Source of the DNA: Euzebya pacifica
Lineage (GTDB): Bacteria; Actinomycetota; Nitriliruptoria; Euzebyales; Euzebyaceae
NCBI RefSeq assembly: GCF_003344865.1
Contig: NZ_CP031166.1
Location: 124,001-188,000 of the forward strand
DNA: 64,000 nt
Direction of reading: 5' to 3'
Shown piece by piece: positions 9,579 to 54,200 of this stretch. Below the pieces are notes generated by a model that saw nothing but the letters and a program-made list of their open reading frames with translations, did not search any database and was not told the origin of the DNA. Position numbers and translations under genes: made by a program. The number at the start of each line of letters is the position of its first letter. Position 1 is the first letter of the stretch.

Positions 9579-9606
9579 CATGACGCAACTGCTAACATAG
9601 GTAGCA
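9570..9606 (+). promoter_or_regulatory. Promoter with operator copy C
   Basis: The -35 TTGACG (9570-9575), 17 nt, and -10 TAACAT (9593-9598) with extended TGC form a strong promoter. The palindrome TGCTA-ACATAGG-TAGCA spans 9590-9606 over the -10. It would drive the small-gene operon from 9632 to 13506. Confidence 0.8.
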
Positions 9607-9631
9607 CAACGATTTGGGAAGGGATCAGCGC

Positions 9632-10270: not shown

Positions 10271-10285
10271 CTCCGGAGAACCCCC

Positions 10286-10483: not shown

Positions 10484-11151
10484 TGCGCCTGCACATCGTC
10501 GCCACCGTCACCCACTACATCCACGAACAGGTCCGCGAGTTCGTCGTCGGCCCCATCGACGACGACACCATCGACGCCGCGATCGACACCGTGTTCCGGA
10601 ACAACCTCGACATGATCGGCGGCTGCGACTTCGAGTCCGCCGAGATCACCGTCGGCGGCTACGCCGAGTTCGAGGCCATCGACCTCGACGGCGGCGACCC
10701 GCCCGACCCCTACGACCTCGACCTTGAGGACATCCGCAACATCGAGCACGAACTGGCGTCGCGGTCCGGCCGCCTCGACGACATCATCGCCGAGGCCATC
10801 CGCCGGGCCAACGGCGACCGCGACCCTGATGACCCGCCGGCCGTCCCGCAGTCCCGTGTCGACGAGCTCGGCCCGTCCCCGATCCCGCTGTGGAACTGGT
10901 CCGACGCCGAGGTGTCGGCGCTGCTCGGCATGATCGACGCCATCGACACCCGCCCCGCCACCGACGGCCAGACCGTCGCCCTCCGTGCCGTGGAGGAGGG
11001 CTACAACGACCCGCGGTTCTGGCTGGTCGTCACCGACGACACCGGCCGTTCGGAGTTCCGCTGCGACGGGTTCCTTGCCCCCGTTGCACAGATCGACGCC
11101 GCCGTCCACGCCCATCGCAACGACCCCCGGGCCGCCCCGGCCACCGCCTGA
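10483..11151 (+). CDS. Hypothetical protein, 222 residues
   Basis: The ATG overlaps the preceding stop (TGATG). The first 60 residues alternate strands and helices (LHIVATVTHYIHEQVREFVVG). A helical stretch follows at 85-110, and a C-terminal part DPRFWLVVTDDTGRSEF looks like a beta sheet. No catalytic motif is seen. It is translationally coupled inside the operator C operon. Confidence 0.6.
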   Translation: MRLHIVATVTHYIHEQVREFVVGPIDDDTIDAAIDTVFRNNLDMIGGCDFESAEITVGGYAEFEAIDLDGGDPPDPYDLDLEDIRNIEHELASRSGRLDDIIAEAIRRANGDRDPDDPPAVPQSRVDELGPSPIPLWNWSDAEVSALLGMIDAIDTRPATDGQTVALRAVEEGYNDPRFWLVVTDDTGRSEFRCDGFLAPVAQIDAAVHAHRNDPRAAPATA

Positions 11152-26840: not shown

Positions 26841-28025
26841 ATGGGCCCATCCAGACGACACATCGCCGGGCTGCTGCACGACGGCCTCGGTTGGGACGCC
26901 ATCGGCGGCAGGTACGGCCTCACCGCCGCCGCCGCACGAGCCCGGTGGCGCGACGCCGTCACGCCACACCTGCGCGAGCTCGCCGCAGCCGATGATGGCC
27001 CCGACCACGACCGGGCGTCCTGCGGCAACGGTGCCGGCTGCCGGCACGAGCTGTGCCGAGCCCGCTACGCCACCTGGACGCGGCGATGGCGGGCCGAACA
27101 GGCCGGCCGGGCCCCCGACCTGCCAACCGATGACGCCGCCATGCTGGACCGCACCGCCAAGGAGCTGCACACCGGGCTCGTCGACTGGGACGATCTTGGC
27201 GACCGGTACGACCGCACCGGCGGATGGGTGCGCCGCCGGCTCGAACGGCTCCTGTTCGACCGGTTCGTCGCGCTCGAGGAGGCCGACGACCCGACGGGAC
27301 GGCACGGCACCAACGCCGGCTACCGGGCGGGGTGCCGGTCCTTGGGGTGCACCAGGGCCCACACCGACAACCGGCTCGCCAACGAGAACATCCGCATCGC
27401 TGGCCGCGGCCGACGGCTGACCGCACGGCCCGTCGCCGACCACATCGCACGGCTAAGGGCCAGCGGCGTGTCGCTCAGGGCCATCGCCGCCGCATCGGGC
27501 CACCACCCGGGACACCTGTCGCGCATCGCCAGCGGCGGCCAGGCACGGGTGTCACCCGAACTCGCCGACGCCGTCCTCGCCGTCACCCCCGACGCCTCCC
27601 CGTTCGTCCCCGCCGACCGGACCCACGCCGTCATCGACATGCTGCTCGAGGCCGGCTGGACACGGGCCGGCCTCGGCCGGGCCCTCGGCACCGCCCGGCC
27701 CGACGCGACCACCCTCGGCATCGGCAAGCACCGCCGGGTCAGACGCGACCGCCACGACCGCCTCGTTGCGCTCCTGGATCGGCCATGGCCGGGGTCGGAC
27801 GCCATCCCACGACCCGCCGGCCCCCACGACCGGCTCGTCGGCTCCGGACCGACCAAGGAACTCGTGCGGCTCCTCTTCGCCCACGGATGGACCGAACAGC
27901 AGATCGCACGGGCCGCAGGCCTCCCCCAGGGGTCGGTGCGGCTCATGGGAACCGCGACCAGCCAAGCGGTCCACCGCAGCCTCGTTGCGCTCATCGACCG
28001 GACCCGGAGCCGCACGGCCGCCTGA
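26841..28025 (+). CDS. Multi-HTH protein, paralogue of 44521
   Basis: The 394-residue product contains several helix-turn-helix-like segments: DGLGWDAIGGRYGLTAAAAR (residues 13-32), LVDWDDLGDRYDRTGGWVR (about 113), ASGVSLRAIAAASGHHPGHL (about 210), AGWTRAGLGRALG (about 272) and HGWTEQQIARAAGLPQGSVR (about 350). Between them is a GRHGT-x4-YRAGCRSLGC motif, a Cys-containing element known from many actinophage proteins. The gene at 44521 has the same order of parts. It may be a sequence-specific DNA-binding protein with repeated modules. It is a candidate regulator of the palindromic operators, though no evidence links them. Confidence 0.6.
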   Translation: MGPSRRHIAGLLHDGLGWDAIGGRYGLTAAAARARWRDAVTPHLRELAAADDGPDHDRASCGNGAGCRHELCRARYATWTRRWRAEQAGRAPDLPTDDAAMLDRTAKELHTGLVDWDDLGDRYDRTGGWVRRRLERLLFDRFVALEEADDPTGRHGTNAGYRAGCRSLGCTRAHTDNRLANENIRIAGRGRRLTARPVADHIARLRASGVSLRAIAAASGHHPGHLSRIASGGQARVSPELADAVLAVTPDASPFVPADRTHAVIDMLLEAGWTRAGLGRALGTARPDATTLGIGKHRRVRRDRHDRLVALLDRPWPGSDAIPRPAGPHDRLVGSGPTKELVRLLFAHGWTEQQIARAAGLPQGSVRLMGTATSQAVHRSLVALIDRTRSRTAA

Positions 28026-31369: not shown

Positions 31370-31535
31370 CTTCGTGGGTGCCTCCTGCCCCCGCTCTGCG
31401 GTACGGCCTGTACCGTTGAACGTCGAAACGACCGGCAATGGGGCCTGTCGGGCCAGCCAACAGGCATCCTCCCGCCGCTGGGCGACTGCCTGTCACGGGC
31501 CCGGCCTCATCGACGGGCGCACAGGAGGACAGGGC

Positions 31536-32399
31536 ATGAAGGACCTCGCTGAGAGCCCCGACAACACGATGCAGCTCTCGGAGGTGGCGTATCAGCTCCT
31601 CGAGGAGATCCTGCTGATCGGAGTCAACGGGGCCGGGCCGCTCGGATCGGCACGGACCGTGGCCGAAGAAGCCATGCGTCGCCACGACAGCAAGGACCGG
31701 GCGATCAGGTCACTCATCCGCATGCACGTGCAGCTTGCCGGCGCGCAAGGCTTCCTCACCAACCTCGGCGGATTCCTGACTCTTCCTGTGGCGCTGCCCG
31801 CAAACATCGGTGCCTGCTACATCCTGCAGACACGCCTGGCCGCATCCATCGCAATCGTCCACGGTCAGGACCCGGCGGAGGAACAGGTCCGGTCGGCCTT
31901 GCTGCTGTGCCTGCTCGGCAACACAGCGGCGGAGGCGGCGAAGAAGGTCGGGGTGCAGATCGGCCAGAAAGTGGCGATGAACGCGATCAAGAAGCTGCCG
32001 ATCGAGGTGCTCCGCGCGATCAACAAGAAGATCGGGTTCATGCTGCTGACCAAGTACGGATCCAAGCGAGGGGTGATCGTGCTTGCCAAGGGCGTCCCTG
32101 TCGTGGGTGGCGCCGTCGGCGGCGGCTTCGACGCCACCAGCACCTACGCGGTCGGCCGATACGCAGCGAGCATGTTCGGCGACCAGGAGGGCAGCGACGA
32201 CGCCCTCGTGGATGCTTCGGATGATGTCTTGGTGGATGCCTCAGCGGTCGACGTGCCGCTCACCGATCCGAACCCGACCACACGGGGTCTGCCCGACGCC
32301 TCGTCAGGCCGCCAGCGACCCGTCGCTGCTGGCGGCAATGACCAGGGTGGCGACGACAGCCCGGCGGACGGCTTCGCGGGCGGCGGCCATCGACCCTGA
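31536..32399 (+). CDS. EcsC-family protein
   Basis: AGGAGGA sits eight bases before the ATG. Residues 55-200 fit the EcsC family: LIRMHVQLAGAQGFLTNLGG, LTLPVALPANIGACYILQTRL, then IAIVHGQDPAEEQV, with GAVGGGFDATSTYAVGRYA near 200. EcsC proteins are peripheral or integral membrane proteins of unclear role, first named in the Bacillus ecs transporter operon. The last 65 residues are acidic and disordered. The 3' end overlaps the minus-strand gene at 32304 by 96 bases. An upstream leader of 160 bases contains TTGAAC but no operator copy. Confidence 0.7.
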   Translation: MKDLAESPDNTMQLSEVAYQLLEEILLIGVNGAGPLGSARTVAEEAMRRHDSKDRAIRSLIRMHVQLAGAQGFLTNLGGFLTLPVALPANIGACYILQTRLAASIAIVHGQDPAEEQVRSALLLCLLGNTAAEAAKKVGVQIGQKVAMNAIKKLPIEVLRAINKKIGFMLLTKYGSKRGVIVLAKGVPVVGGAVGGGFDATSTYAVGRYAASMFGDQEGSDDALVDASDDVLVDASAVDVPLTDPNPTTRGLPDASSGRQRPVAAGGNDQGGDDSPADGFAGGGHRP

Positions 32400-36129: not shown

Positions 36130-39100
36130 ATGACCGACCTGCTGCCCGACCTCTACGACCGCGAACGCGCCTGGACAGACCCCGCCAAGCACGGCATCAG
36201 TCCCCGAGCCCAATGGTCCGGGAACGGCAAGAACGCCCTGTGGGTCTGCCACGCCACCGCCAACAAACGGCCCGCCAACGGCCACGTCATCGACGTCTGG
36301 AGGCAACGGCAGGGCAACGGCGCAGCCCCTGTCCTGCTCGTCATCACCCACCACGGTGGCGCGGTCCTGTGCGGCCCGTCCGGGGATTCTCCACCGGTGG
36401 TCGACTTCGATGCCGACGTCGCCCGACGCATCGCCACCACCGCCTTGGAACTGCCCACCCGGCACGCCGCCGCCCGCAAAGTCTTCGGCTACCTCGACAC
36501 CGACGGCGAGGAAGCGACCGGCATCATAAACCGGGGTCTGTTCGCCACTCACCACCTCCGTACCGGTGTGCCCGATCGGCCCGACTGGGACGATGCCCGC
36601 ACCACCGCCGAACCGGCCATGGACAAGGTGGACCGCGAACTCGTCGCCGCCCTCGGCTGGACCATCGAACCCCAAGGCGTCCACGAGGTCCTGCGCGACC
36701 CCGATGACCAGACCGCACGGGCGGTCGCGGTCTTCCTCGCCCCTGACGAATCGGCCGACGTCGCCTCGGTCAAGCGCAACAACACCAGTCCCGTCTCCTG
36801 GGCGATGACCCACGCGGACCGCAATAACATCCCATGGGTCGTCACCGTCCAGGACCGGGCGATCCGCCTGTACTCCACCGCCACCTCCGGCGCCGCCGGA
36901 CAGGGGTCCCGCGAAACCACCTACGCCGAGCTGGACCTCACCATCCTGCCCGGTGAGCTCGCCGGCTACCTCACCCTGCTGTTCTCCGCCGACGCCCTCG
37001 CACCGGGCGGTACCGCCGAACAGATCCGCGAAGCCTCAGCCGACTACGCTGCCGCGCTTGCCGAACGGCTCCGCGAACGCGTCTACGACCAGGTGATCCC
37101 CGCCCTGGCCACCGCCATCGCCGCCAAGGACTCCGGCCCGGAGGGGCCGGACCTCGACGCCGCCTACAGGACCGCCCTCACGGTGCTGTTCCGCCTGCTG
37201 TTCCTAGGCTACGCCGAGTCGAAGCGCCTGCTGCCCTACAAGCGCAACACCGACTACACCGACGCCTCCCTGGCCAAGCAAGCCCGACGGCTCGCCGACC
37301 TCCATAACGAAGGCGCCGATCTCGGGTTCGACAACCCCCTCACCCCCCAGATCGAGGCGCCCACCGACACCGACCAGACCGACCTGTGGGACACCTGCGC
37401 ACGGCTGTTCCGCGTCGTTGACAAGGGCCACACCCGCTACGGGGTCCCCGTGTACAACGGCGGACTGTTCTCCGACGACCCCGACGTCAACCCCGCCGGC
37501 GCCACCATCGCCGACCTGGCGCTGTCCAACACCGAGTTCGGCCCGCCGCTCATGGCCCTGCTCATCGACCACACCCCCGACGGGGGCGCCGGGCCGATCG
37601 ACTTCCGCAGCCTGTCAGTCCGCGAGTTCGGCACGATCTACGAAGGCCTGCTCGAATCCGAACTCGCCCTCGCCGACCAGGACCTCACCCTCGTCAAGCG
37701 AGGCAACGACCAGGTCTATGAACCCGCAGGAGCGATGGATGAGGTGGTCGTTGCCGAGGGCGAGGTGTACCTCCACAACGCCTCCGGCGCCCGCAAGGCC
37801 TCCGGGTCCTACTTCACCAAGCCCTTCGCCGTTGAACACCTCATAGGCACCGCGCTGCTACCAACCCTCGACGAGCACCTCGACCGGATCGCCGACCTCC
37901 TTGGGCAGGGCCAGGAAGCCGATGCAGCCGAGCAGTTGTTCGACTTCCGCGTCGCCGACATCGCGATGGGCTCCGGGCACTTCCTCACCGCCGCCGTTGA
38001 CGAGATTCACGCCCGCATCTCCGCATGGCTCGCCGACCATCCGATCGCCGGTGTCGACATCGAGATCGACAACCTCCGCAGGGCCGCCCGGCAATCGCTG
38101 CCCGAAGGGCAGCACGACCTCGTCGAAGACGCCGCCCTCCTGCGACGCCTCATCGCGCGCCGGTGCGTCTACGGCGTCGACCTCAACCCGATCTCTGTGG
38201 AACTCGCCCGCGTATCGATGTGGATCCACACCTTCGTGCCCGGACTCCCGCTGTCCTTCCTCGACCACAACCTCGCCATTGGCAACAGCCTCACTGGGGT
38301 GGCCAGCCTCGATGAGGCTCTGGACGCGTTGTCCCCACGCGCAGAAGGCGCTGCTGACGGGAAGACGATGCTCACCGCATCTTTGGGTATGGACGTGCTG
38401 CGCAGTCACCTGGCTGCCGCTGAACAACCCCTCAGCCGACTCGGCCAGATCCTGGACACTACGACCTCCGACATCGAGGAGTCCCGGCTCCTGGCGCACG
38501 AAGCCGCAGCGGCCATCGCACCCCTTGAGCGGTTGCTAGACGCCGTGGTGGCCGCGCGTCTTGGGGAGACCCCCATGCCCAACATCCTCGTCGAGAGCGA
38601 CGTGCTGGACGCCGGCAGCGACCAGGCCAGCACCGCCGCCGCCGAGGTGGACGCGTTGCACTTCCCGATCGCTTTCCCCGAGGTGTTCATACGCGACCGG
38701 GCAGGGTTCGACGTGCTGATAGGCAACCCCCCATGGCAGGAGGCAACGATCGAGCGGCACGGGTTCTGGGCGCTACGGTTCCCCGGCCTTCGCAGCCTCG
38801 ACCAAGCCAAGATGGAAGCCGAGATCGACGCCCTTGCCCGATCCCGACCTGACCTCGTGGCGGGCTACGAGCAGGAGGTCTCCGACATGGAAGCCATCCG
38901 GGCGACACTGCACGCCGGACCGTACCCAGGCATGGAGACCGGCGACCCAGACCTCTATAAGGCGTTCGCTTGGCGATTTTGGCACCTGCTGCGGCTCGGC
39001 GGGCGCACCGGAGTCGTGCTGCCCCGTGGGGCCATCGCGATGCTCGGATCCCAGGCCTGGCGGCAGGAACTGCTCGACCACGGGGCGTTGGAGCAGATCG

Positions 39101-40221
39101 TGCAGCTCACCAACAAGGGCGGCTGGGTGTTCGATGGTGTCGAACCCCGGTACACGGTCGCATTCAACGTGCTGCGTCGAAACCCACTGGGGACCGTCAC
39201 CGATCTGCGCCTCTACGGACCCTATGACAACCGGATGGACTACGACACTGGGATCGCCGGGCCAGGAGCGGTCGTCCCGACCGACGAGCTGCGTAAGTGG
39301 ACCCAAGCGGCCTCGGTGCCATTGATGGCCTCCGAGCGTCACGCCGAGGTTTTCCGGGTGCTTCGTCGCCACCGGAAGGTCGCCGAGTTGCCCTTCGCGT
39401 ATATCCGGGAACTCGACGCGACCAACGACAAGAAGCACATGATCCTCAACCCAGGTGCCACAACCGGACTGTGGGAGGTCTGGAAGGGCTCGTCGTTCGA
39501 CATCTGGCAACCGGGCACCGGCGAGGTGTACGCATATGCCGATCCGGCCTACATGACCGAGGTGTTGGAGAAGAAGCGCACCCGTAGTCGCAACATGAAG
39601 ATCATGCCGCCCGCATGGCGCACCGACCCGGACACCCTCCCCGTTCTGAACTACCGCATCGCCTTCCGCGACATCGCCCGCGCCACCGACTCCCGCACCA
39701 TGCGGGCATGCCTCATCCCACCCGAGAAGCCACTGACCAACAAGGCACCGTACCTGCTGCGCAGCGACAAGGCGACGGTGCAGGACGAGGCTTACCTCCT
39801 CGGCGTGCTCTGCACGCGCGTGTTTGACTGGCAGGCCCGATGCACCGTCGAGACGAACGTGAACAAGTACGTCCTTGACGACTTTGCCGTCCCGTGGCCC
39901 ACCAACCCGGACCATCCGGGACGTCGACGGGTAGTTGAGATCGCCACTCGTCTGGCCGCGCAGACACCCGACTACACCGAGTGGGCGAAGCCACTCGGCC
40001 ACGAACCCGAACCAGTCAGCGCAGCCGACACCGCGGAACTGCTGGTGGAACTCGACGCCACCGTCGCCCGTCTCTACGGCCTCACCCGAGACGACCTCAC
40101 CCACCTCTACGCGACCTTCCACCCCACCGGCGGCCATGAAGCGTTCGGTCAAAAGGTCATCGCCCACTTCGACACGCTGGACTTCGGTTCCGCCCACCCC
40201 ACCGACAAGGTCACCGCATGA
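36130..40221 (+). CDS. Eco57I-type adenine-N6 DNA methyltransferase, large
   Basis: The 1363-residue protein carries S-adenosylmethionine motif I as VADIAMGSGHFLTAAVDEI (about residue 609) and the catalytic N-P-P-W motif IV as DVLIGNPPWQEA (about 865). The N-terminal 550 residues and the C-terminal 450 are accessory, the latter with CTRVFDWQARCTVE and FAVPWP as in target-recognition parts of type I/IIG enzymes. The order methyltransferase then helicase recalls type ISP, BREX and class 1 DISARM (DrmMI) enzymes. It should methylate adenine in a specific site and protect the host. The stop overlaps the helicase start (ATGA). Confidence 0.85.
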   Translation: MTDLLPDLYDRERAWTDPAKHGISPRAQWSGNGKNALWVCHATANKRPANGHVIDVWRQRQGNGAAPVLLVITHHGGAVLCGPSGDSPPVVDFDADVARRIATTALELPTRHAAARKVFGYLDTDGEEATGIINRGLFATHHLRTGVPDRPDWDDARTTAEPAMDKVDRELVAALGWTIEPQGVHEVLRDPDDQTARAVAVFLAPDESADVASVKRNNTSPVSWAMTHADRNNIPWVVTVQDRAIRLYSTATSGAAGQGSRETTYAELDLTILPGELAGYLTLLFSADALAPGGTAEQIREASADYAAALAERLRERVYDQVIPALATAIAAKDSGPEGPDLDAAYRTALTVLFRLLFLGYAESKRLLPYKRNTDYTDASLAKQARRLADLHNEGADLGFDNPLTPQIEAPTDTDQTDLWDTCARLFRVVDKGHTRYGVPVYNGGLFSDDPDVNPAGATIADLALSNTEFGPPLMALLIDHTPDGGAGPIDFRSLSVREFGTIYEGLLESELALADQDLTLVKRGNDQVYEPAGAMDEVVVAEGEVYLHNASGARKASGSYFTKPFAVEHLIGTALLPTLDEHLDRIADLLGQGQEADAAEQLFDFRVADIAMGSGHFLTAAVDEIHARISAWLADHPIAGVDIEIDNLRRAARQSLPEGQHDLVEDAALLRRLIARRCVYGVDLNPISVELARVSMWIHTFVPGLPLSFLDHNLAIGNSLTGVASLDEALDALSPRAEGAADGKTMLTASLGMDVLRSHLAAAEQPLSRLGQILDTTTSDIEESRLLAHEAAAAIAPLERLLDAVVAARLGETPMPNILVESDVLDAGSDQASTAAAEVDALHFPIAFPEVFIRDRAGFDVLIGNPPWQEATIERHGFWALRFPGLRSLDQAKMEAEIDALARSRPDLVAGYEQEVSDMEAIRATLHAGPYPGMETGDPDLYKAFAWRFWHLLRLGGRTGVVLPRGAIAMLGSQAWRQELLDHGALEQIVQLTNKGGWVFDGVEPRYTVAFNVLRRNPLGTVTDLRLYGPYDNRMDYDTGIAGPGAVVPTDELRKWTQAASVPLMASERHAEVFRVLRRHRKVAELPFAYIRELDATNDKKHMILNPGATTGLWEVWKGSSFDIWQPGTGEVYAYADPAYMTEVLEKKRTRSRNMKIMPPAWRTDPDTLPVLNYRIAFRDIARATDSRTMRACLIPPEKPLTNKAPYLLRSDKATVQDEAYLLGVLCTRVFDWQARCTVETNVNKYVLDDFAVPWPTNPDHPGRRRVVEIATRLAAQTPDYTEWAKPLGHEPEPVSAADTAELLVELDATVARLYGLTRDDLTHLYATFHPTGGHEAFGQKVIAHFDTLDFGSAHPTDKVTA

Positions 40222-43200
40222 GCCACAAGCCCGAGGTCGTCTCCAACCGTCACGGCACCGTCGCTGACGCCATCGGCGGTTACTGGGACCACTTCCTGAC
40301 GCACCGTCCCGGCGACCTCGCCCTCGCGATCGCGTCGGCTTACTTCAACCCCGGCGGGTTCAAGCTCCTCGCTGACCGGCTCGAGGCCGCCGCCAAGGTC
40401 CGGCTGCTCATCGGGGCCGAGCCAGACGTGGCCGCCGACATGTTCAGGCGCCGGTCCCTGGCCGCGTCGCGTCCAGGGCACACGATGAAGGCCCGACTTG
40501 CCGAAGCACTAAAGGAGCACCTTGCAGAGATCGAGGTTGACCGTGACCTCATCGCCTTCACCCCCGGCAACGACGCGCTCGTCGAACGGCTCATCGCGTG
40601 GCTGCGCAGCGACGCCGTGGAGACTCGACGGCTCACCAGCCAGTTCCTCCACGGCAAGGCCTACATCCTTGAGACCGACAGCGAAGGTGTGGTTGCCGGG
40701 TCGTCCAACTTCACCTACGCCGGGCTGGCCCGCAACGTCGAACTCAATCTCGGCCACTACGAGCCCTACAAGGTCAAGCAGGTCCAAGACTGGTTCGAAG
40801 AGTTGTGGGACGAGGCCGAGGCCTACGACCTTGCGCGCCTCTACGAACGTCGTTTCGAGGACCACCAGCCATGGATCGTGTTCCTCAGGATGCTCTACGA
40901 ACGCTACGGCGACGACCTCGACGTCAGCGACGAGTCCTTCGGCATCCCGATGCTGCCCTTCCAGGCCGAAGGGGTCATGCGGGCCCGGAGGTTCCTTGCC
41001 CGCTACAACGGTGTCGTGATCGCCGACGGCGTCGGGCTCGGCAAGACCTTCACGGCCGGCCAGCTCATATGGGAAGCCGTGCACGACCGCCGCCAACGGG
41101 TCCTGCTCATCGCCCCCGCAGCACTGCGTGACGGTCCTTGGGCCAAGTTCCTCGTAGAGCACGACCTCGAAGCCGTCACCTCGATCTCCTATGAGCAACT
41201 CTGCAACGACATTCGTCTGGGTGGCACCAAGGAGGTCTTGAAGCACGACCCCGACGACTACGCCATGGTCGTCATCGACGAGGCCCACGCCTACCGCAAC
41301 ACCGGCACCGAACGAGCAGGGGTGCTCCGCGAACTGCTGAAGGGCTCGCCACAGAAGGACCTCGTGCTGCTGACCGCCACCCCGGTCAACAACAGCCTGA
41401 TCGACCTCTACAACCTGCTCGCCTACTTCATCCGCAACGACGGAGAGTTCATGCCCGTCGGCATCCCGTCGCTGCGCAAGCACTTCGCCGCAGCCCAGGC
41501 TGCAGACCCCGAGGACCTCTCCCCAGACCTTCTCTTCGACGTCCTCGACGCCGTTGCCGTCCGGCGCACCCGACGGTTCGTCAAGAAGCACTACGCCGGC
41601 ATGGAACTGCCTGGCCTGGGACCCATCCGGTTCCCCGAGCCGAAGGTCACCCGCGTCGACTACGACCTCGACGCCGTCATCCCAGGCTTCTTCAACGACT
41701 TCGCCCACGCCCTCGGGATGGACCCGGACGACCCCGACACGCCCATCCCCACCCCCGACCAGTTCGACTACCAATCCGGCCAGCTCACTCTCGCCCGCTA
41801 CGCCCCCTCTGCCTTCCTGGCCGACCCCGACGCCGATCCGGAACCCTATGAGATGCAGGCCGCAGGCCTGCTGCGCTCCGGCCTGCTCAAGCGATTCGAG
41901 TCCTCCTCTGCGGCGTTCGCCAAGACCTGCCGCAAGATGGCCGCCTCACACGACCTGTTCCTCGACGCACTCGACGACGGATGGGTGCTGACCGGTGACG
42001 CCCTTGCCGAGTACGCAAGGACCGACACCGACTACGACCCGTCTGACTACGACGGCGGCGGCACCCGCGGTGACGCTGCCGACTACGACCTCGACGAGCT
42101 CCGTGCGGCCGTCGAGGCCGACAGGAACCTGCTGGAGGAGTTCGCCGGCCGGGCCGAGGCGATCGGTGTTGCCGACGACCCCAAGCTCGACGCCCTGATC
42201 GAGGCGCTCGCCGCGATCGCCGAGCAGGCCGACCATGACGGACTCACCCCACGCGAGCAGCAAGACAACCGCAAGGTGCTGCTGTTCAGCTACTACGGCG
42301 ACACCGTCGACTGGATCATGGAACGCCTCGCCGATGCAGTCGTCACCGACCCGAGGCTTGCGGCCTACACCGGTCGGGTCACATCGGTCACCGGCGACGA
42401 CGGCGACAAGAAAGAGGTCATGTACGGGTTCGCGCCACGGACCGCCGGGGCGCCGGACGGGTGGACCGACAACTACGACATCCTCGTTGCCACCGACGTT
42501 CTGGCGGAGGGCGTCAACCTCCAGCAGGCACGCCACATCATCAACTACGACCTGCCGTGGAACCCGATGCGGCTTGTTCAACGGCACGGACGCATCGACC
42601 GTATCGGCTCTCCGCACCCCAAGGTGTGGATGCGTTGCTTCTTCCCCTCCGATGTCCTCGACGACCTCCTCGGTCTCGAAGCACGCATCCAACGAAAAAT
42701 CGCCCAGGCCGCCGCCTCGATCGGTGTGGAGGACGAGATCATCCCCGACTCCGCGGTCGCCGAGGTGGTGCTCGCCCACACCAAGGAACAGATCCAGGCG
42801 ATCCACGACGAGGACGCCGCCCTGCTCGACGACGACCATGCCCCCGGTGCCCTGTCGGGCGAGGAGTTCCGCAAGATCCTCGCCGACGCCATGGACAACG
42901 CGACCACACGCGCCAAGGTCCTCGGGTTGCCGTGGGTCGCTGGATCCGGGTTCCGCAGCAGTGGCAACCCCGGGTTCGTGTTCTGCGCCCGAGTGGGCGA
43001 CCACCCCGAAGCGGTGTTCCGGTGGGTCCCCATCGACACCGACGGCAACACCCTCGTGGAGGCGGACGGCACCACGATCCTTTCGGACCAGACGCTGCAG
43101 GCCATCGCGCGCGCCCAGTGCGAACCAGCCACCGACTTCGACCTGCCCGACGCGGCACGGGACAAGGCGTACACGGCCTGGGAAGCGGCACGTGACGACA

Positions 43201-43610
43201 TCCTGGCGAAGTGGGCCGACCTGTCGGACCCGACCAACGTTGTGGTGCCGGTCCCGAAGACGATGCGACGGGCCAAGGAGCTGCTCATCAACCACCCCCC
43301 GGCCGGCGTCACCCAGGACAAGCTCGACTGGTACGACGAAGCCCTCTCAGCCCCCTACGACCACCGCACCCAGAGGATCCTGCGGCAAGCAATCATCGAC
43401 CATGACAACCCAGCTGACCAGGCCGTCGAGATCGTCAAGGTCATCCACGACCTGGGACTCGAACCCCAACCGGAGGTCCAACCCCTCCCGGAGATCGAAG
43501 CCGACGACATCTACCTGGTGTGCTGGATGGCCGTGTTGCCCGAATCCAACAGCGCTTCAGACGTGCTGTTGGAGCAGCCTGAGGGCCTTCCTGCGCAGAT
43601 CGACTCATGA
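40218..43610 (+). CDS. PLD-nuclease/SNF2-type helicase fusion
   Basis: The ATGA overlap with the methyltransferase fixes the start. Residues 1-190 are a phospholipase-D-like domain with one HKD motif: HGKAYILETD and, six residues on, GSSN (about 145-165), so a dimer would be needed for cutting. A helicase follows: Walker A GVGLGKT (about 272), DEAH box VVIDEAHAYRN (about 353), motif III TATPVNN, and motifs V-VI ATDVLAEGVNLQQA and QRHGRIDRIG (about 755-800). SNF2-like enzymes translocate along double-stranded DNA. Likely role: ATP-driven scanning and cutting of unmethylated invading DNA. It shares features with DISARM DrmD and other PLD-helicases. Confidence 0.85.
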   Translation: MSHKPEVVSNRHGTVADAIGGYWDHFLTHRPGDLALAIASAYFNPGGFKLLADRLEAAAKVRLLIGAEPDVAADMFRRRSLAASRPGHTMKARLAEALKEHLAEIEVDRDLIAFTPGNDALVERLIAWLRSDAVETRRLTSQFLHGKAYILETDSEGVVAGSSNFTYAGLARNVELNLGHYEPYKVKQVQDWFEELWDEAEAYDLARLYERRFEDHQPWIVFLRMLYERYGDDLDVSDESFGIPMLPFQAEGVMRARRFLARYNGVVIADGVGLGKTFTAGQLIWEAVHDRRQRVLLIAPAALRDGPWAKFLVEHDLEAVTSISYEQLCNDIRLGGTKEVLKHDPDDYAMVVIDEAHAYRNTGTERAGVLRELLKGSPQKDLVLLTATPVNNSLIDLYNLLAYFIRNDGEFMPVGIPSLRKHFAAAQAADPEDLSPDLLFDVLDAVAVRRTRRFVKKHYAGMELPGLGPIRFPEPKVTRVDYDLDAVIPGFFNDFAHALGMDPDDPDTPIPTPDQFDYQSGQLTLARYAPSAFLADPDADPEPYEMQAAGLLRSGLLKRFESSSAAFAKTCRKMAASHDLFLDALDDGWVLTGDALAEYARTDTDYDPSDYDGGGTRGDAADYDLDELRAAVEADRNLLEEFAGRAEAIGVADDPKLDALIEALAAIAEQADHDGLTPREQQDNRKVLLFSYYGDTVDWIMERLADAVVTDPRLAAYTGRVTSVTGDDGDKKEVMYGFAPRTAGAPDGWTDNYDILVATDVLAEGVNLQQARHIINYDLPWNPMRLVQRHGRIDRIGSPHPKVWMRCFFPSDVLDDLLGLEARIQRKIAQAAASIGVEDEIIPDSAVAEVVLAHTKEQIQAIHDEDAALLDDDHAPGALSGEEFRKILADAMDNATTRAKVLGLPWVAGSGFRSSGNPGFVFCARVGDHPEAVFRWVPIDTDGNTLVEADGTTILSDQTLQAIARAQCEPATDFDLPDAARDKAYTAWEAARDDILAKWADLSDPTNVVVPVPKTMRRAKELLINHPPAGVTQDKLDWYDEALSAPYDHRTQRILRQAIIDHDNPADQAVEIVKVIHDLGLEPQPEVQPLPEIEADDIYLVCWMAVLPESNSASDVLLEQPEGLPAQIDS

Positions 43611-44455
43611 TCGGCCAACCCTTGGCGGGTTTTGATCGGCTCAACCGTGCGGTGGTGCGTGGCCGTCGGGCCCCGCACAAGCCACTGCTGGTGCTTGTGA
43701 TGCTCGGCTATCTCTCCCGCGGTAGGGACCGGGTCGCTTATGACGAAGTGGAACCGGTCCTTCGTCGACTGCTTGCCCGGTACAACGCCCAACGGTCCGC
43801 CCAGACCCCGTTCAACCCGTGGCTTCGGCTGCCCGCTGACGGCGTGTTCGAGGTGGCGGGGTGGTCACCGGACCGCGGGTACAGCGACGTTGCGGCCCGC
43901 GGGACCGTCGGCGGGTTCGTGCCGGGAGTCCGGGCTGCGCTGTCGATGGATCCGTTGGCCGTCCCGGCCCTGGCCGCCTCCATGCTGGCCGAGAACTTCG
44001 CGTCGTCGCTGCACGCCGACATCCTCACGACCTGCGGGTTGGCCAACACGGTGCCGGCGGGGCTGCTCGGCACGGGCGGCCGGCCGCGGGACCACGGGTT
44101 TCCCGACCGGGTGTTCGACGCCTGGGGGAGGGCCTGTGTTGTGTGCGGCTGGGACGCTGGCGACGGCACCGACGAGGGGATCGGGGTGCAGGCCGCCCAT
44201 GTCCAGTGGCATTGCTTCGACGGGCCAGACACTGCTGACAACGGCCTGCCGTTGTGCGCGTTGCATCATGTCTGCTTCGACCGTGGCCTGTGGGGCATCA
44301 GCGAGGACTGGACGATCCGGGTTGCATCGAGCGTGGAGGGCGGCCCTGAGGTCCTCCGTGGCCTGATCGACCGGCACAGCCATCCCTTGCGGGGCGAGGG
44401 GACGCTGGCCTCCCACCATGTCGAGTGGCACACCACACAGGTGCTGGCCGTCTGA
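43607..44455 (+). CDS. SBD-HNH restriction endonuclease (ScoMcrA-like)
   Basis: The ATGA overlap with the helicase makes this the third gene of the operon. The N-terminus (FDRLNRAVVRGRRAPHKPLL, GYLSRG, then ENFASSLHADIL near 127) matches the sulfur-binding-domain region of phosphorothioate-dependent McrA enzymes such as ScoMcrA. The C-terminus is an HNH nuclease: CVVCGWD, VQAAHVQWH and CALHHVCFDRG give C-x2-C, the catalytic His and the N/H residues (about 180-226). Family members cut phosphorothioate- or methyl-modified DNA. Whether this protein reads sulfur-modified DNA or has been adapted to the methylase/helicase pair is unknown. At 282 residues it is complete. Confidence 0.8.
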   Translation: MIGQPLAGFDRLNRAVVRGRRAPHKPLLVLVMLGYLSRGRDRVAYDEVEPVLRRLLARYNAQRSAQTPFNPWLRLPADGVFEVAGWSPDRGYSDVAARGTVGGFVPGVRAALSMDPLAVPALAASMLAENFASSLHADILTTCGLANTVPAGLLGTGGRPRDHGFPDRVFDAWGRACVVCGWDAGDGTDEGIGVQAAHVQWHCFDGPDTADNGLPLCALHHVCFDRGLWGISEDWTIRVASSVEGGPEVLRGLIDRHSHPLRGEGTLASHHVEWHTTQVLAV

Positions 44456-44520
44456 CCTCCGGTCAGACGGCCGTCCCCGGGTGGCGGTGGGTGTCGGGGG
44501 GCCGGTCGACCATCTGCCAC

Positions 44521-45726
44521 ATGCCCGTTGTGCCGTGTGCGGAGATCCCGTCGACTGCGGTGATTGCTGCGCATCGGTTGGACGGCCGATCGTGGAAGTG
44601 GGTCGCCGATCGGTACGGGATGACGATCACCGCGGCGCGAAACGAATGGATGATGACGGTCCGACCCCTCCTGGTTGCGGCGTCCAGGGCGGAGGGCAGC
44701 GACCACTGGCGGCTGCGGCACGGCCGGTCGTGCACAGCGGCGGTGTGCGCGGACCGTCAGCTGGAGATGGAGCGTCGGCGGCGTGCCGAGCAGCGGGGCG
44801 ACGCCGCCCCGGTCCCCACCGACGACGAGGCCCTCCTCGACGACGTGGCGGCCGGGATGGTGGCCGGGACCATCGACTGGTACGACGTTGCGGACCGGTT
44901 CGGCCGGTCCCTTGGGTGGGTCCGTGACAGCTGGGAACCACTTCTGATGACGCGGTGGGTGGTGCTGGAGGAGCAGCGGGCTCCTTCTGGGCGGCACGGC
45001 ACCGTCCATGGGTACGTCAAGGACGGGTGTCGAGGGCCTGGCTGCGCTGCTGCGATGAAGGATGACAGCCGCCGGCGCCGCCGGGCTGTTGCCTATGGCC
45101 GGCCTGCGCTGGTTCCGGTCGGCCCGATCGGCGAGCACCTCGACGACCTGGCGGCGGCAGGTGTGGGGATGCCCACGGTGTCCAGACAGGCCGGGGTGGC
45201 GTTGTCGACGGTGCAGTCGATCCGCAGTCGGTCCCGGCCGATGGTCCAAGCCACGACGGCTGATCGGCTCCTGGGGGTCTCCGCATCGATGGCTGCGACG
45301 GTTGACTCGTCCGACACGCGGGCCGTGATCGCCGAGCTGCTCCTGCGCGGGTGGACGAAGGCAGGGATCGCTCGTCAGGTCGTTTCGCCGGGCGCGACGG
45401 TGCTGCACATCGGGGTGCGTCCTCGCACCAGCCGAGCCAACCATGACGCCGTGGCGGCGTTGCTTGACCGGCCGTGGCCCGGCACGCCATCGCTGCCTGC
45501 GCCGATGTGGCCCGACGACCGGGTCGTCTCCTCTGAGTCCGCGAAGGCACTCCTGCTGCTGCTTGCCGAGGCCGGTGTCAACCCACGCCGGGCTGCTGCC
45601 CGGATTGGCGTCGACGCCGATGCACTCGTGGCGATGGGTGAACGGACCACCTTGGGGGTCATCGGCCGGCTCCGGCGGCTGGCGGCAGCACCGCACCAGC
45701 CGATCGTCCGGCCACGGGCCGCCTGA
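44521..45726 (+). CDS. Multi-HTH protein, paralogue of 26841
   Basis: The ATG at 44521 is chosen because the frame before it lies in the nuclease gene's 3' end. The 401 residues repeat the layout of the protein at 26841: DGRSWKWVADRYGMTITAAR (residues 20-39), TIDWYDVADRFGRSLGWVR (about 119), a GRHGT-x3-YVKDGCRGPGC motif (about 160), then GVGMPTVSRQAGVALSTVQ (about 217), RGWTKAGIARQVV (about 278) and AGVNPRRAAARIGVDADAL (about 350). Stretches such as AALLDRPWPG are nearly identical (VALLDRPWPG in the other). Probably DNA-binding; its target is unknown. It lies between two defence genes. Confidence 0.6.
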   Translation: MPVVPCAEIPSTAVIAAHRLDGRSWKWVADRYGMTITAARNEWMMTVRPLLVAASRAEGSDHWRLRHGRSCTAAVCADRQLEMERRRRAEQRGDAAPVPTDDEALLDDVAAGMVAGTIDWYDVADRFGRSLGWVRDSWEPLLMTRWVVLEEQRAPSGRHGTVHGYVKDGCRGPGCAAAMKDDSRRRRRAVAYGRPALVPVGPIGEHLDDLAAAGVGMPTVSRQAGVALSTVQSIRSRSRPMVQATTADRLLGVSASMAATVDSSDTRAVIAELLLRGWTKAGIARQVVSPGATVLHIGVRPRTSRANHDAVAALLDRPWPGTPSLPAPMWPDDRVVSSESAKALLLLLAEAGVNPRRAAARIGVDADALVAMGERTTLGVIGRLRRLAAAPHQPIVRPRAA

Positions 45727-45761: not shown

Positions 45762-47894
45762 TCAGTCGGTGGCCGGGGGGAGGCTGGTGGATTCCAGGTA
45801 GGCGTCTCGGAGGTCGTCGAGGCGGACGTAGGTTCCGTTGCGTTCGACCGCCCAGGTCTCCCAGCCGTTGACGTTGCCGTTGGCCAGCGTCGCACCGGCC
45901 CCCGACGGGGTGGCGTAGCGGACCCCATCGAGGATGATTGCACCGTCGGTGCTGACGGTTCCGCTGCCCGGTGCCGTTGACCGCAGGTGGGTGATCGTTT
46001 CGTCAGCGAACAGCAGTTCCGCTGCGATGAGGTCGGCAAGGCTGATGTGGCTGCGGTCAACGGAGGTTGCATGCGGGGTGCTGTGACCGTCCCCGACGAC
46101 GATGGGGGCGTCTTCGGGTTCGACGTCTGGGGCAACGGGACTGCGGTCGACGAGGGTCTGGTAGCCACGATGGATGACGTCGGCCATCAGCTTCCGGCGT
46201 GTCTCGCAGAAGGTGTCGTAGTCATCGGTCCACCATCCGTCGTAGAGGGCATGGTCGGCCATCTGTGCGGCCAGGGTCGCGTGGGGGAGGGTGTCGGCGT
46301 GCAGGGGCCAGTAGTGGGCGGGGGCGTCATCGGAGATGTCGCCGTTCTCCACCCAGTCAACGAGGGCGGCGTTGGCAGGACGGTTGGCGAGCGCCGACCA
46401 CTGGGCGCCGGACAGGCCGGTCTGGTGGCGCAGGTAGGCCTTGGGGAACAGGTGATGGCGTTCGATGCCCTTGGCTGCGGTTGAGGGGCCCAGCCGATGG
46501 GAGACCCGTTCGTCGTTGGGGGCGAACAGCACTGGCGCGTCGATGACCACTTGGGCGGCCTCGTAGGCCATGAGGGCCCGGTTGGACCACGACCGCGAAT
46601 CGAGGGCTTCGGGCAGCGACGTGGTGAAGAAGTCGGGGGTCATGATCGCGGCGAGCCGACGTTCGGTTGCGCTGATCAGGTCGACGTCGTCGCGGGTCAT
46701 GGCGTACAGGTCCGCGGCGAGGGTCGATTCGCCCGACCCGGAGTAGCGGCCCGTGACCGATGCGGCGTAGAACCATCGGGCCATGAGGTTCTGCAGATGG
46801 CGTCGGTCGATGCCGCGTTGGCGGCCGTGGGTCCAGATCGCATAGGTCGCAAGGACCGCAAAGTCGCTGTTGACCTGACGGGAGGACCGGTATCCGGCGG
46901 TGTCCAGGACGCGGAGGAACTCGTGCCAGTGGTGGGTGGACAGGACCTCCTCCTGGGCAACTGACCAGGCGGCGAACCGTTCGGCCCGAGTCTGGGTGTC
47001 GTCGTCACCGCGAAGGAACGCGTACACGTCGGAGAGGGCGGCACGACGAAACGCCACCGCGGCGACGACCCTGACCAGCTGGGTGGCGTCGGGGAGGATG
47101 TGGGGGTTGTGCGGGGTCCTGGCGGCCTTGTACGGGCTGTCGGTGTGGGCGGCACGAACCCATTCCTCCAACGCGATCCGGTCCTTCTGGGCATGCACTG
47201 ACATGAGGGTCAGGACGAAGTCGGACTGCCCCAGCGACTTGCCGCCGTTGTTGGTGCGGACAAACACCTCTGCGACGTCCTCCACGTCGGCGTGTTCCTT
47301 CAGCTCAACGACTGCAAGCTTGAACTTGGGAAGGTCAGTCAAGCGGGACAGGTGGGTCTGGACGGTCGCGAGTTCGGTGTCGGTCAGGTCCCTGCCGGTG
47401 GCCTTGAGCCCCTCGACGTAGCCGTTGACCACGGTGAAGGCGTTCTCCGCAAAGGCCTTGGTGATGTCGGGAATCCATTCGGCGTTCTTGGCGATGGCGC
47501 TGTTGGAGGTCTCGAACCGGCCGGTGAGCGGGTTGAACGCGATGCGGATCCGCTGCGACTTGTAGTCCTTGTTGAGGACCTCCGCGCCGTGCAGCACCGC
47601 ATAGATCGACGTGACCCGCTGCTGCCCATCGATCAGCAGCAACGACGGGTCGGCCTCCTTGGTGTCGGTTCCGATGGTCCGGACCGACTCCGACCTCGTG
47701 CGCCACGTCATGATGTTGCCGACCGGGTAGCCCCGGAACAGGCTGTCGAAGAGATCGCGGACATCGACGTTCTTCCACACGAACGGCCGCTGCAGCTCGG
47801 GGAGGGCCAGTTCGCCAGTGGCGACCTGCTCTGCGAGTCGGGACAGCGAAGCGCTCGTGTCGACGAACTTGTCTTCCAGAGCGACAGCGACCAC
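45762..47894 (-). CDS. GmrSD-like DUF262/HNH-type restriction protein
   Basis: A GTG start at 47894. Residues 30-70 (LPELQRPFVWKNVDVRDL, FRGYPVGNIMTW) and LLIDGQQRVTSIYAVLHG near 85-105 are the DUF262 (GmrS) NTPase/nuclease core. About residue 475, GIERHHLFPKAYL is the H-x3-P nuclease motif of DUF1524 (GmrD). Fused in 710 residues, this matches single-chain GmrSD type IV enzymes, which restrict glucosylated or otherwise modified phage DNA. The C-terminal 170 residues include a ISLADLIAAELLFADETI part followed by a strand-rich RAMA-like tail (GAIILDGVRYATPSGAGATL, GWETWAV), a domain typical of modified-DNA readers. It is convergent with 44521. Confidence 0.85.
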   Translation of the reverse strand: MVAVALEDKFVDTSASLSRLAEQVATGELALPELQRPFVWKNVDVRDLFDSLFRGYPVGNIMTWRTRSESVRTIGTDTKEADPSLLLIDGQQRVTSIYAVLHGAEVLNKDYKSQRIRIAFNPLTGRFETSNSAIAKNAEWIPDITKAFAENAFTVVNGYVEGLKATGRDLTDTELATVQTHLSRLTDLPKFKLAVVELKEHADVEDVAEVFVRTNNGGKSLGQSDFVLTLMSVHAQKDRIALEEWVRAAHTDSPYKAARTPHNPHILPDATQLVRVVAAVAFRRAALSDVYAFLRGDDDTQTRAERFAAWSVAQEEVLSTHHWHEFLRVLDTAGYRSSRQVNSDFAVLATYAIWTHGRQRGIDRRHLQNLMARWFYAASVTGRYSGSGESTLAADLYAMTRDDVDLISATERRLAAIMTPDFFTTSLPEALDSRSWSNRALMAYEAAQVVIDAPVLFAPNDERVSHRLGPSTAAKGIERHHLFPKAYLRHQTGLSGAQWSALANRPANAALVDWVENGDISDDAPAHYWPLHADTLPHATLAAQMADHALYDGWWTDDYDTFCETRRKLMADVIHRGYQTLVDRSPVAPDVEPEDAPIVVGDGHSTPHATSVDRSHISLADLIAAELLFADETITHLRSTAPGSGTVSTDGAIILDGVRYATPSGAGATLANGNVNGWETWAVERNGTYVRLDDLRDAYLESTSLPPATD

Positions 47895-51276: not shown

Positions 51277-51376
51277 GGTGAACTCCTGGACTGCGGGGTG
51301 GCAAGCGACCAACCCATCGGCCGGGCCCAACGAACTGTGAGCGGTCATGTCGTCGGGCGGGTGCACCATCGTGGTG

Positions 51377-51946
51377 ATGATCCTCTCCGACACCGCCATC
51401 AGGGAAGCCATTGACGCGGGCCAGTTGACGCTGGACCCGATCGACCTGGATCGGGCGTTGCAGCCGACCAGCGTCGACGTCCACCTCGCCGCATCCTTCA
51501 GGACCTTCGACAGCCACCGGCATCAGGTCATCGACCCCCGGCGGTTGCCCGGCGACCTGACCAGCGAGGCGACCGCGTCCACGGAGGACCCTTTCGTGCT
51601 GCATCCGGGCGAGTTCGCGCTCGCCTCGACCGTGGAGACCGTCGGGTTGCACGGCCCCATCGTTGGACGGGTGGAGGGCAAGTCGAGCCTCGGCAGGTGC
51701 GGCTTGGCGATCCACGCGACCGCTGGATTCATCGACGCCGGGTTCCACGGCAACATCACCTTGGAGTTGTCCAACGTGGCGAACCTGCCGGTCCTGTTGT
51801 ATCCGGGGATGCCCATCGCCCAGTTCGCCTTCTTTGCTGTCCAGGGCAAGATCGCCCGCCTCTACGGCCACCCCGACCTGCGCTCCAAGTACCAGGGGCA
51901 GGCCGGCCCCACCGCCTCGGCCTACCACCGCAACTTCGACCGGTGA
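51377..51946 (+). CDS. dcd: dCTP deaminase (possibly bifunctional, dUMP-forming)
   Basis: The ATG at 51377 starts with ILSDTAIREAI, the usual Dcd N-terminus. The family core is seen: LQPTSVDVHLA, VEGKSSLGRCGLAIHATAGF (about 100-120), IDAGFHGNITLELSNVA with the catalytic Glu, and the C-terminal GQAGPTASAYHRNF. The enzyme converts dCTP to dUTP, or in bifunctional forms to dUMP, feeding thymidylate synthesis. With ThyX at 52641 this makes a dTMP supply pair, common in phages and large plasmids. At 189 residues it is of normal length. The stop overlaps the next GTG. Confidence 0.92.
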   Translation: MILSDTAIREAIDAGQLTLDPIDLDRALQPTSVDVHLAASFRTFDSHRHQVIDPRRLPGDLTSEATASTEDPFVLHPGEFALASTVETVGLHGPIVGRVEGKSSLGRCGLAIHATAGFIDAGFHGNITLELSNVANLPVLLYPGMPIAQFAFFAVQGKIARLYGHPDLRSKYQGQAGPTASAYHRNFDR

Positions 51947-52201: not shown

Positions 52202-52552
52202 ATGACCGACAACCACCGCGTCCTCGACCCCTCCACCGGCCCCGCAGTGGCCGCACGGATCCTCTGGGGCGACGACGCCTACGACTCCACCCGTCAGGGC
52301 GGCATCGGCGAGACCGACATCGACGATGTCCGTCCGTGGCTCGCCGAACTCCCGACAGAACGGGTTGACGCCATCGCCGCCGCCACCGGGCCGCACTGGG
52401 GCGAGGTCATCGACGCCACCACCGACGAGATCAAGGCGGTCGCCAACCTCGGCCTCGACGGCCTGCAGGGCGTCGCCGCCCACTCCGACCTCGAGATCGA
52501 CGGCGAGGCCCTCGCTGCCTTCCTCCACGCCAACCGGACCCGCACCGCCTGA
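52202..52552 (+). CDS. Acidic helical hypothetical protein, leaderless
   Basis: The ATG lies seven bases after the -10 box, so the message probably has no leader. The 116 acidic residues are mostly helical (VRPWLAELPTERVDAIAAAT, EIKAVANLGLDGLQGVAA). It lies directly upstream of thyX and may be co-transcribed with it. No known motif. Confidence 0.6.
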   Translation: MTDNHRVLDPSTGPAVAARILWGDDAYDSTRQGGIGETDIDDVRPWLAELPTERVDAIAAATGPHWGEVIDATTDEIKAVANLGLDGLQGVAAHSDLEIDGEALAAFLHANRTRTA

Positions 52553-52640
52553 AACGACCGACGGTCCCACCCTGAGGGGCTCGGCCATCGCGTGTTCGCA
52601 GCAGGCGTCAGCTGCGGCCGTGTCGGACCGGTGGGCGACC

Positions 52641-54200
52641 ATGCGTTGCATGGAGATGCTCACCGACGACGAGGCACGGCTGATCGCCCCGTACGTGTCC
52701 AACACGACTGCCGGCGTGTTCGCCATCCACGGGCTGCCAGAAGCCGTGAAGGCCGGCCTGTTCGCCCGCTACTCCCGCTCCACCAAGGGACTGCGCCGAC
52801 TGCTGCTCGACGAGTTCGCCGACGTCCTCGATCCCGACCGGACCGACGACCTCGACGAGGGCGACCGGGCACGCGAACTCCTCGACCGAGTCGTGGTCCA
52901 GTTCGGCGACGACTCGGTGGCCGCCGGGGGCGGGGCCCACGCCGCCGTGGAGGGCGCGTCGAACCTGCTGGCCAAGCAACTCGAATGGGGCCGCCTCGCC
53001 GCCTACCTGGAGAAGTCCACCCGCTACGTCCCCTACGACGACAAGGTCGATGGCCGCTACCGGTACGTCCGGCCGCCCGAGATCATCGACGGCCCCCACC
53101 TGGCCGAGTACGAACGCGTCCTCGACAACGTCTTCGACATCTACTCCGGGCTGATCGGCCCGCTGGAAGCCATGTACCGGGCCCGCCACCCCCAAGACGC
53201 CCAGACGTCGGCTGAGGCGTACCGCAACACCATCCGTGCCAAGGCCCTGGACACCGCACGGGGGCTGCTGCCCGCCGCCACCGCCACCAACGTCGGCATC
53301 TTTGCGTCCGGGCAGGCGTGGGAGAACATGCTCATGCGGATGCGCGGCCACGACCTCGCGGAGGTCCGCACCACCGGCGACGCCCTCCTTGGCGAGCTCC
53401 GCACCGTCATCCCGTCGTTTCTCCGCCGCGTCGACATGCCCGACCGCGGCAACGTGTGGACCGCCTACCTGGCGTCGTTGCGGGCCATCGCCAAGGACGT
53501 CCACACCAGCGAGATCCGGCCGACGTTCGGGCCTGACCGTCCCGGACGGCCCGGTGTCCGACTCGTCGCGCACGGCCCCGATGGCGCCGACATCGACGTC
53601 ATCGCCGGACTGCTCTATGGCGTCTCTGACCTCCCCGAGGACGAGCTGCGGTTCACCGTGGCCCGGATGCCCGCAGCCCAACGGGCTGACCTGCTGAAGC
53701 GGCTCGCTGGTGACCGGACCAACCGGCGGCACAAGCCCGGCCGCGGCCTCGAACGGGCCTGGTACCGGTTCGAGCTCGTGTCGGACTACGGCGCGTTCCG
53801 CGACCTGCAACGCCACCGCATGGCCACCATCGACTGGCAACTCCTCTCACCGGTCCACGGCTACACGATCCCCGATGACATCATCGACCTGGGCGGCACC
53901 CACGCCAAGGCCTACAAACGGGCGCTGTGGTCACAAGCGGACCTGCACCGCACCCTGCTGAGCACCCACGGTCCCGAAGTGGCCCAGTACGCCGTCGGGT
54001 TCGCCTACAACCTGCGGTACACCATCCAGATCAACGCGCGGGCCCTCATGTTCATGCTCGAGCTGCGAACCCAACCGCAGGGCCACCCCTCCTACAGGCG
54101 GGTCTGCCAGGAAATGCACCGGCTCGTGGACGGGGTCACCCCCTCGATCGCAGCGATCATGCTACGTCGACCATCGCGACTACGAACTGGAACGCCTTGA
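52641..54200 (+). CDS. thyX: FAD-dependent thymidylate synthase, tandem-domain type, frameshifted end
   Basis: The product has two ThyX-like halves. The first contains VQFGDDSVAAGGGAHAAVEG and LEKSTRYVPYDD. The second carries FRDLQRHRMATIDW (R-H-R motif, about residue 390) and INARALMFMLELRTQPQGHP. ThyX makes dTMP from dUMP using methylene-tetrahydrofolate, NADPH and FAD. ATGs at 52641, 52650 and 52656 are all possible starts. The frame ends at 54200 with RRPSRLRTGTP, but deleting C54162 continues the normal end MYVDHRDYELERLDAER to a stop at 54229-54231. This is a single-base insertion or a sequencing error. Only the last 20 or so residues are affected. Confidence 0.85.
   Translation: MRCMEMLTDDEARLIAPYVSNTTAGVFAIHGLPEAVKAGLFARYSRSTKGLRRLLLDEFADVLDPDRTDDLDEGDRARELLDRVVVQFGDDSVAAGGGAHAAVEGASNLLAKQLEWGRLAAYLEKSTRYVPYDDKVDGRYRYVRPPEIIDGPHLAEYERVLDNVFDIYSGLIGPLEAMYRARHPQDAQTSAEAYRNTIRAKALDTARGLLPAATATNVGIFASGQAWENMLMRMRGHDLAEVRTTGDALLGELRTVIPSFLRRVDMPDRGNVWTAYLASLRAIAKDVHTSEIRPTFGPDRPGRPGVRLVAHGPDGADIDVIAGLLYGVSDLPEDELRFTVARMPAAQRADLLKRLAGDRTNRRHKPGRGLERAWYRFELVSDYGAFRDLQRHRMATIDWQLLSPVHGYTIPDDIIDLGGTHAKAYKRALWSQADLHRTLLSTHGPEVAQYAVGFAYNLRYTIQINARALMFMLELRTQPQGHPSYRRVCQEMHRLVDGVTPSIAAIMLRRPSRLRTGTP

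Follow-up and report, generated by a model that had tools for sequence, protein, structure and literature searches.

A conserved methyltransferase and PLD-SNF2 helicase gene pair, followed by an accessory gene for a predicted SBD-HNH nuclease, in Euzebya pacifica

We analysed a stretch of 64,000 nucleotides of Euzebya pacifica (hereafter called the window), which belongs to a contig of 571,580 bases in a genome of two contigs and 6.37 Mb. It harbours three codirectional genes whose products we called MT, HEL and HNH (Table 1). Both junctions are 4-nt ATGA overlaps, at 40218 for MT/HEL and at 43607 for HEL/HNH. A first, sequence-only reading had described a tight operon of a methyltransferase, a PLD-SNF2 helicase and an SBD-HNH nuclease gene; both overlaps are present, and the domain matches obtained with Pfam, PADLOC and NCBIfam agree with the three gene identities. 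Each of the three proteins has homologues of equal extent in other genomes, and thus none of the ORFs is a chance frame. We infer that the three genes are co-transcribed. Searches yielded no promoter or terminator signals above chance, and no Rfam RNA family matched across 30-52 kb of the window. The HTH-rich ORF that follows was considered as a fourth gene of the operon and rejected, as it is 38% identical to another ORF of the window and belongs to a family found on this replicon.

Table 1. Genes of the operon and other features of the window
Feature	Position	Strand	Remarks
Relative of the HTH-rich ORF at 44425-45726	26841-28025	+	
ORF matching a PADLOC candidate defence family	31374-32399	+	341 aa; PDC-S29, E 1e-76
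MT, Eco57I-type N6-adenine DNA methyltransferase	36130-40221	+	1363 aa; gene 1
HEL, PLD-SNF2 helicase	40218-43610	+	1130 aa; gene 2
HNH, SBD-HNH enzyme	43607-44455	+	282 aa; gene 3
HTH-rich ORF	44425-45726	+	Start probably inside this range; no PADLOC match
GmrSD-family (DUF262) enzyme with C-terminal RAMA domain	45762-47894	-	PF03235, E 2e-27; PF18755, E 1e-12
dCTP deaminase-like gene	51347-51946		
ThyX-like gene	52326-54200		

The survey of HEL relatives covered 396 genomes of the phylum, all 66 genomes available for the class, 72,556 plasmids and viral contigs. We tabulated 17 further loci with intact or nearly intact pairs, among them five plasmids and three viral contigs. The MT gene precedes the HEL gene on the same strand in all of them, and the two genes are at most 60 nt apart in 15. 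The 4-nt MT/HEL overlap is also present in other genomes (loci L038, L041, L149 and L153). Regarding the two spacing exceptions, the MT gene of L035 is apparently frame-shifted near its end, and the viral contig L176 has an ORF of 286 residues (5477-6337, +) between MT and HEL. The product of this inserted ORF looks trypsin-like (NRHVV). At fragmented or decayed loci such as L037, L039 and L158, pieces of MT still precede HEL. In PLSDB, the same five plasmids cover at least 80% of HEL and at least 80% of MT. The pair is found on the plasmids pCRE138 of Rhodococcus erythropolis, pJCM6399 of Mycobacterium gallinarum and pTC1 of Paenarthrobacter aurescens, as well as on the haloarchaeal plasmids pHLAC01 of Halorubrum lacusprofundi and one Halalkalicoccus plasmid. 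The public annotations of these plasmids label MT 'hypothetical protein' and HEL 'helicase-related protein' or 'helicase, SNF2 family'. The pair is present in all three close HEL matches on viral contigs. Phage genomes contain distant HEL relatives only, and a single-sequence search of genome contigs with HEL detected no relative. MT and HEL are a conserved two-gene unit. In the class survey, three genomes of the same genus were found to lack the helicase, and therefore the system was probably acquired.

MT matches Eco57I (PF07669, E 5e-15). In the alignment of 10 MT sequences, motif I (D..MGS.HF, comprising D610, M613-G614-S615 and H617-F618) and motif IV (GNPPW) are invariant. The target-recognition region (TRD) is C-terminal, at approximately residues 1001-1262. 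In this region the proteins are of two identity types that cut across lineages, bacteria and archaea included: L038, L149 and L151 have one type, and the window, L034, L035, L150, L152 and L153 have the other. In the TRD region, identity is 42% between the Mycobacterium and Halalkalicoccus proteins but only 23% between those of Halalkalicoccus and Halorubrum, which share 65-66% identity in their first 870 residues. This pattern looks like an exchange of target-recognition regions.

MT residues 36-1347, i.e. the full length of the protein, match the PADLOC model REase_MTase_IIG (PDLC03620, E 2e-230). According to this label, MT could be a stand-alone type IIG restriction-modification (R-M) enzyme and HEL an independent neighbour. 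Like the type IIG enzymes (PDLC03620, BpuSI, DrdV), MT has an N-terminal domain and a C-terminal TRD in one chain, and its residues 166-301 resemble the nuclease domain of BpuSI with a Z score of 7.0, which is within the noise range of the tool and was obtained with a low-confidence model. However, the strand expected to bear the ExK motif reads RAVAVFL, and neither an acidic residue nor a lysine is conserved there across ten sequences. In addition, a PLD-SNF2 partner is encoded next to MT in every locus tabulated. We consider it very improbable that MT works on its own as a type IIG enzyme. No fold matched the N-terminal model of MT beyond the noise range, which does not argue against a known fold for this domain; it may be a degenerate PD-(D/E)XK fold. 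As the putative ExK strand is devoid of conserved acid or lysine residues, this nuclease-like domain is probably dead.

HEL combines PLDc_2 (PF13091), SNF2-rel_dom (PF00176) and Helicase_C (PF00271) domains. The PLD motif HGK...GSxN, the Walker A motif GLGKT, the DExH box, the SAT-like ATP motif and motif VI (QRxGRxxR) are all kept in nine sequences. HEL is thus predicted to be a restriction subunit, with a PLD nuclease domain of the HKD type fused to an SNF2-family SF2 motor. Given that the nuclease strand of MT is apparently dead, the nuclease duty most likely falls on the PLD domain of HEL.

We compared the pair with known systems. DISARM class 1, in which DrmD and DrmMI occur with DrmA, DrmB and DrmC, likewise has an adenine methyltransferase next to an SNF2 helicase, and a distant similarity is clear (212 bits between MT and DrmMI, 171 bits between HEL and DrmD). 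However, the cut-off of the DrmD equivalog NF038317 is 610 bits, and in our locus a PLD domain is fused to the helicase. The locus and ten neighbouring genes yielded no DrmA, DrmB or DrmC, the SNF2 and PLD cross-matches being located inside HEL only. Domain and PADLOC searches thus agree with the sequence-only reading that these three proteins are absent nearby. Their absence and the low DrmD score exclude membership in DISARM class 1.

The BREX-related (BR) type 2 and Hma (BR type 1) systems comprise a DUF499 ATPase, an N6-methyltransferase and a Swi2/Snf2 helicase. In type 2 BR systems, the Swi2/Snf2 helicase bears an HKD nuclease at its N-terminus and is paired with the N6-methyltransferase (PMC12839542). 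HEL and MT share this architecture, and the likeness is one of architecture only. HEL scores 154 with the PLD-helicase equivalog NF042964, as compared with a cut-off of 1100, and the pair consists of two genes only. A search of the whole genome for DUF499 (PF04465) gave no match; one control genome was positive. The absence of DUF499 excludes a BREX-related or Hma system. A type ISP system is also excluded, as the nuclease and motor on the one hand and the methyltransferase and TRD on the other are encoded by two genes with a 4-nt overlap rather than in a single polypeptide. Our literature search for a named two-gene system made of a methyltransferase and a PLD-SNF2 helicase returned BR/Hma and DISARM only, in line with the sequence-only reading, which knew of no named system with this gene order. 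The MT-HEL pair would act like its ATP-dependent R-M relatives, yet it fits none of the systems compared.

The product of the third gene matches HNH_2. It also scores 187.5 bits, against a cut-off of 180, with the NCBIfam model NF045808, 'phosphorothioated DNA-binding restriction endonuclease'. With that protein alone as a query, phmmer against the PDB yielded a weak match to TagI only; the sulfur-binding domain (SBD) emerged from the profile and the structure model. The AlphaFold model (pLDDT 87.3) superposes through residues 3-150 on the SBD of ScoMcrA (5zmo; Z 19.1, rmsd 2.2 over 145 residues). It also matches 7cc9 (Z 17.2), and its C-terminal half matches the HNH domain of TagI (6ghs; Z 14.7). 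The relationship to ScoMcrA put forward from sequence is therefore borne out by both profile and model. The sulfur-pocket residues H24, K25 and P71 are invariant in 34 sequences, and so are the HNH and zinc residues C177, C180, H198, N212, C217, H220 and H221. The former three correspond to H116, R117 (Lys in our protein) and P165 of ScoMcrA, which matter for phosphorothioate (PT) binding according to mutagenesis, R117 being replaced by lysine in most homologues (PMC6224610). With its pocket, HNH site and zinc ligands intact, the third protein is a genuine SBD-HNH enzyme, predicted to be a PT-dependent endonuclease.

This protein is about 31-41% identical to its relatives, and it departs from them at a few positions of the SBD. 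Tyr164 of the ScoMcrA lid, reported to be only partly conserved in the family (PMC6224610), corresponds to N70; Tyr is found in 20 of 33 relatives, and Asn is among none of the residues listed for them. W72 and F81 replace a near-invariant Phe and an invariant Trp, respectively, of the 33 relatives. Inspection of the sulfur pocket in the structure model, proposed together with the sequence-only reading, gave the same picture, with the His, Lys and Pro kept and the lid Tyr replaced by Asn. That reading had also suggested that the SBD might have changed its target. At most the lid and the neighbouring positions point in this direction, as the essential His/Lys/Pro pocket is intact; the sequence preference of the enzyme is possibly altered. 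Compared with the SBD-HNH endonucleases SprMcrA and EcoWI and the SBD of ScoMcrA, the protein thus shares the fold, the pocket, the HNH site and the zinc ligands, and it differs by its lid and a shorter specificity loop. Those endonucleases are encoded alone, in contrast with a gene placed behind an R-M-like pair. A search of the genome for DndC (TIGR03183) gave no match at E 1e-3; no control genome passed the curated cut-off, and the sensitivity of this search is thus only partly checked. Such a result is expected if PT marks stand for foreign DNA. Less than 3.6% of such enzymes are reported to be encoded near dnd genes (PMC7461809).

To what extent the three genes belong together was addressed in both directions. 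When every ORF of 24 further HEL loci was searched with the profile built from 34 SBD-HNH proteins, no convincing homologue was found; the sole weak match (E 3e-6), in L037, is a protein of 426 residues encoded roughly 2 kb away from HEL. Conversely, 80 SBD-HNH loci on genome contigs were read with flanks of up to 10 kb, and none has MT or a HEL of this type. The gene behind HEL varies: it codes for a GmrSD-family protein in G408 and G011, an SF1 helicase-nuclease in G143, a CoiA-type nuclease in G076, a transposase in G058 and a TetR regulator in R. erythropolis, and at other loci there are unknown or opposite-strand genes. The protein of 334 residues encoded behind HEL in G226 was considered as a hidden SBD-HNH enzyme, and the similarity test gave no support for this. 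Genome G129 was set aside as a possible second case, as its SBD-HNH gene and its HEL-like gene are on separate short contigs of 3.5 and 3.0 kb, which show no linkage either way; its HEL-like protein falls in a more distant group of HEL proteins. The sequence-only reading regarded the three genes as one system, and the neighbourhood survey that it had itself named as a refuting test went against the triplet: MT-HEL is widespread at loci that lack the HNH gene, and so are SBD-HNH genes at loci that lack MT-HEL. The third gene is accessory rather than a conserved partner and, among the loci surveyed, is behind the pair at this locus only.

A few SBD-HNH loci have noteworthy neighbours of their own. 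In L083 (Paenibacillus glycanilyticus), a PLD-DEAD-DUF3427 helicase gene (7004-9907) precedes the SBD-HNH gene (9944-10810) with a gap of 37 nt; this is a different PLD helicase from HEL. L099 has two consecutive HNH_2 genes (504-2691), the second of which codes for an SBD-HNH protein. The gene preceding the SBD-HNH gene codes for a weakly DndB-like protein, below the Pfam cut-off, in L117 (7578-9977) and for a PAPS-reductase-family protein in L103 (9141-9971). L117 and L103 may be rare examples of a PT-dependent nuclease gene with PT modification genes next to it.

There are two ways in which the three proteins might nevertheless work together. In one of them, the genes form a single system in which MT and HEL recognise and translocate DNA and the HNH protein is the nuclease, its SBD being re-purposed to read the system's own m6A state or normal DNA. 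The ATGA overlaps at both junctions fit this model, and so do residues N70, W72 and F81, which occur almost never or never in the 33 relatives. However, the HNH gene is present at no other MT-HEL locus that we read, HEL already supplies the pair with a PLD nuclease whose catalytic residues are invariant, and the sulfur pocket is fully kept, which together make such a machine rather improbable. In the other, the triplet is restricted to a narrow lineage that captured the SBD-HNH protein as a coupled effector, its altered lid reading a non-classical mark, so that both unmodified and foreign-modified DNA are restricted. The HEL/HNH overlap, found in this window only, implies translational coupling, and HEL and HNH could therefore be more closely linked in function in this lineage. 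A limitation of the triplet to a narrow lineage is possible because the nearest HEL relatives are 57-60% identical and the same-genus genomes lack the system; we give little credence to the coupled-effector model as a whole.

Another candidate partner is encoded two genes away from the pair. The GmrSD-RAMA gene is probably a second accessory, type IV-like nuclease gene of the same island. Alternatively, it might be the functional partner of MT-HEL, the SBD-HNH gene having come in between. A GmrSD-RAMA relative with 46% identity is encoded directly behind MT-HEL on the same strand in G408 (L157), and a more distant GmrSD gene is behind the pair in G011 (L035). Of the 66 genomes in the class survey, three have a GmrSD protein of this type and four have HEL, with two genomes in common; in G408 the genes adjoin each other, and in the window they share an island. 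In contrast, the GmrSD gene of the window is on the opposite strand, no GmrSD homologue adjoins the pair on the annotated plasmids or in the three viral pairs, and a relative with 66% identity in G370 is on a short contig without sign of MT-HEL. A dedicated GmrSD partner is thus unlikely, even if the link of GmrSD to MT-HEL is more suggestive than that of HNH, with still only two or three cases. The genome to which the window belongs harbours a second GmrSD paralogue (G000:C1:334304-336106).

We therefore favour, with a probability of roughly three in four, a two-gene R-M-like defence system, MT-HEL, with a separately acting accessory SBD-HNH nuclease encoded in the same operon. We infer the activities of the three proteins and their division of labour as follows. 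The C-terminal specificity region of MT would recognise a short motif, and MT would methylate adenine in the host DNA. As the intact motifs of HEL suggest, its SNF2 motor would move on invading, unmethylated DNA, and its only PLD domain, of the HKD type and probably dimeric, would cut this DNA. The HNH protein, recruited into the same transcript, would act separately and cleave foreign DNA bearing PT marks, which is not an expected target of a methylation-based system. The locus would thus be a layered island, with one layer against unmodified DNA and another against foreign-modified DNA, and not a single machine made of three proteins. Auxiliary type IV nucleases are known to adjoin modification systems, e.g. 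GmrSD with BREX, and SRA- or SBD-HNH proteins with Dnd and BREX (PMC12839542, PMC10853773). The third gene follows the same theme, the modification system being here an MT/PLD-SNF2 pair.

The MT-HEL pair recurs on plasmids, on contigs classified as viral and on chromosomes of actinobacteria and haloarchaea. As MT is annotated as hypothetical and its best PADLOC model is that of a lone type IIG enzyme, this two-gene system is probably counted as half of a system. That bacteria and archaea share two TRD types suggests that the R-M role is real, and it makes the target motifs accessible to methylome sequencing. With its attached SBD-HNH and GmrSD-RAMA genes, the locus is a clear example of modification-dependent nucleases gathering round modification systems. 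Finally, the window also codes for a candidate defence protein, and genes for dCTP deaminase-like and ThyX-like proteins are near the island on the same replicon (Table 1).
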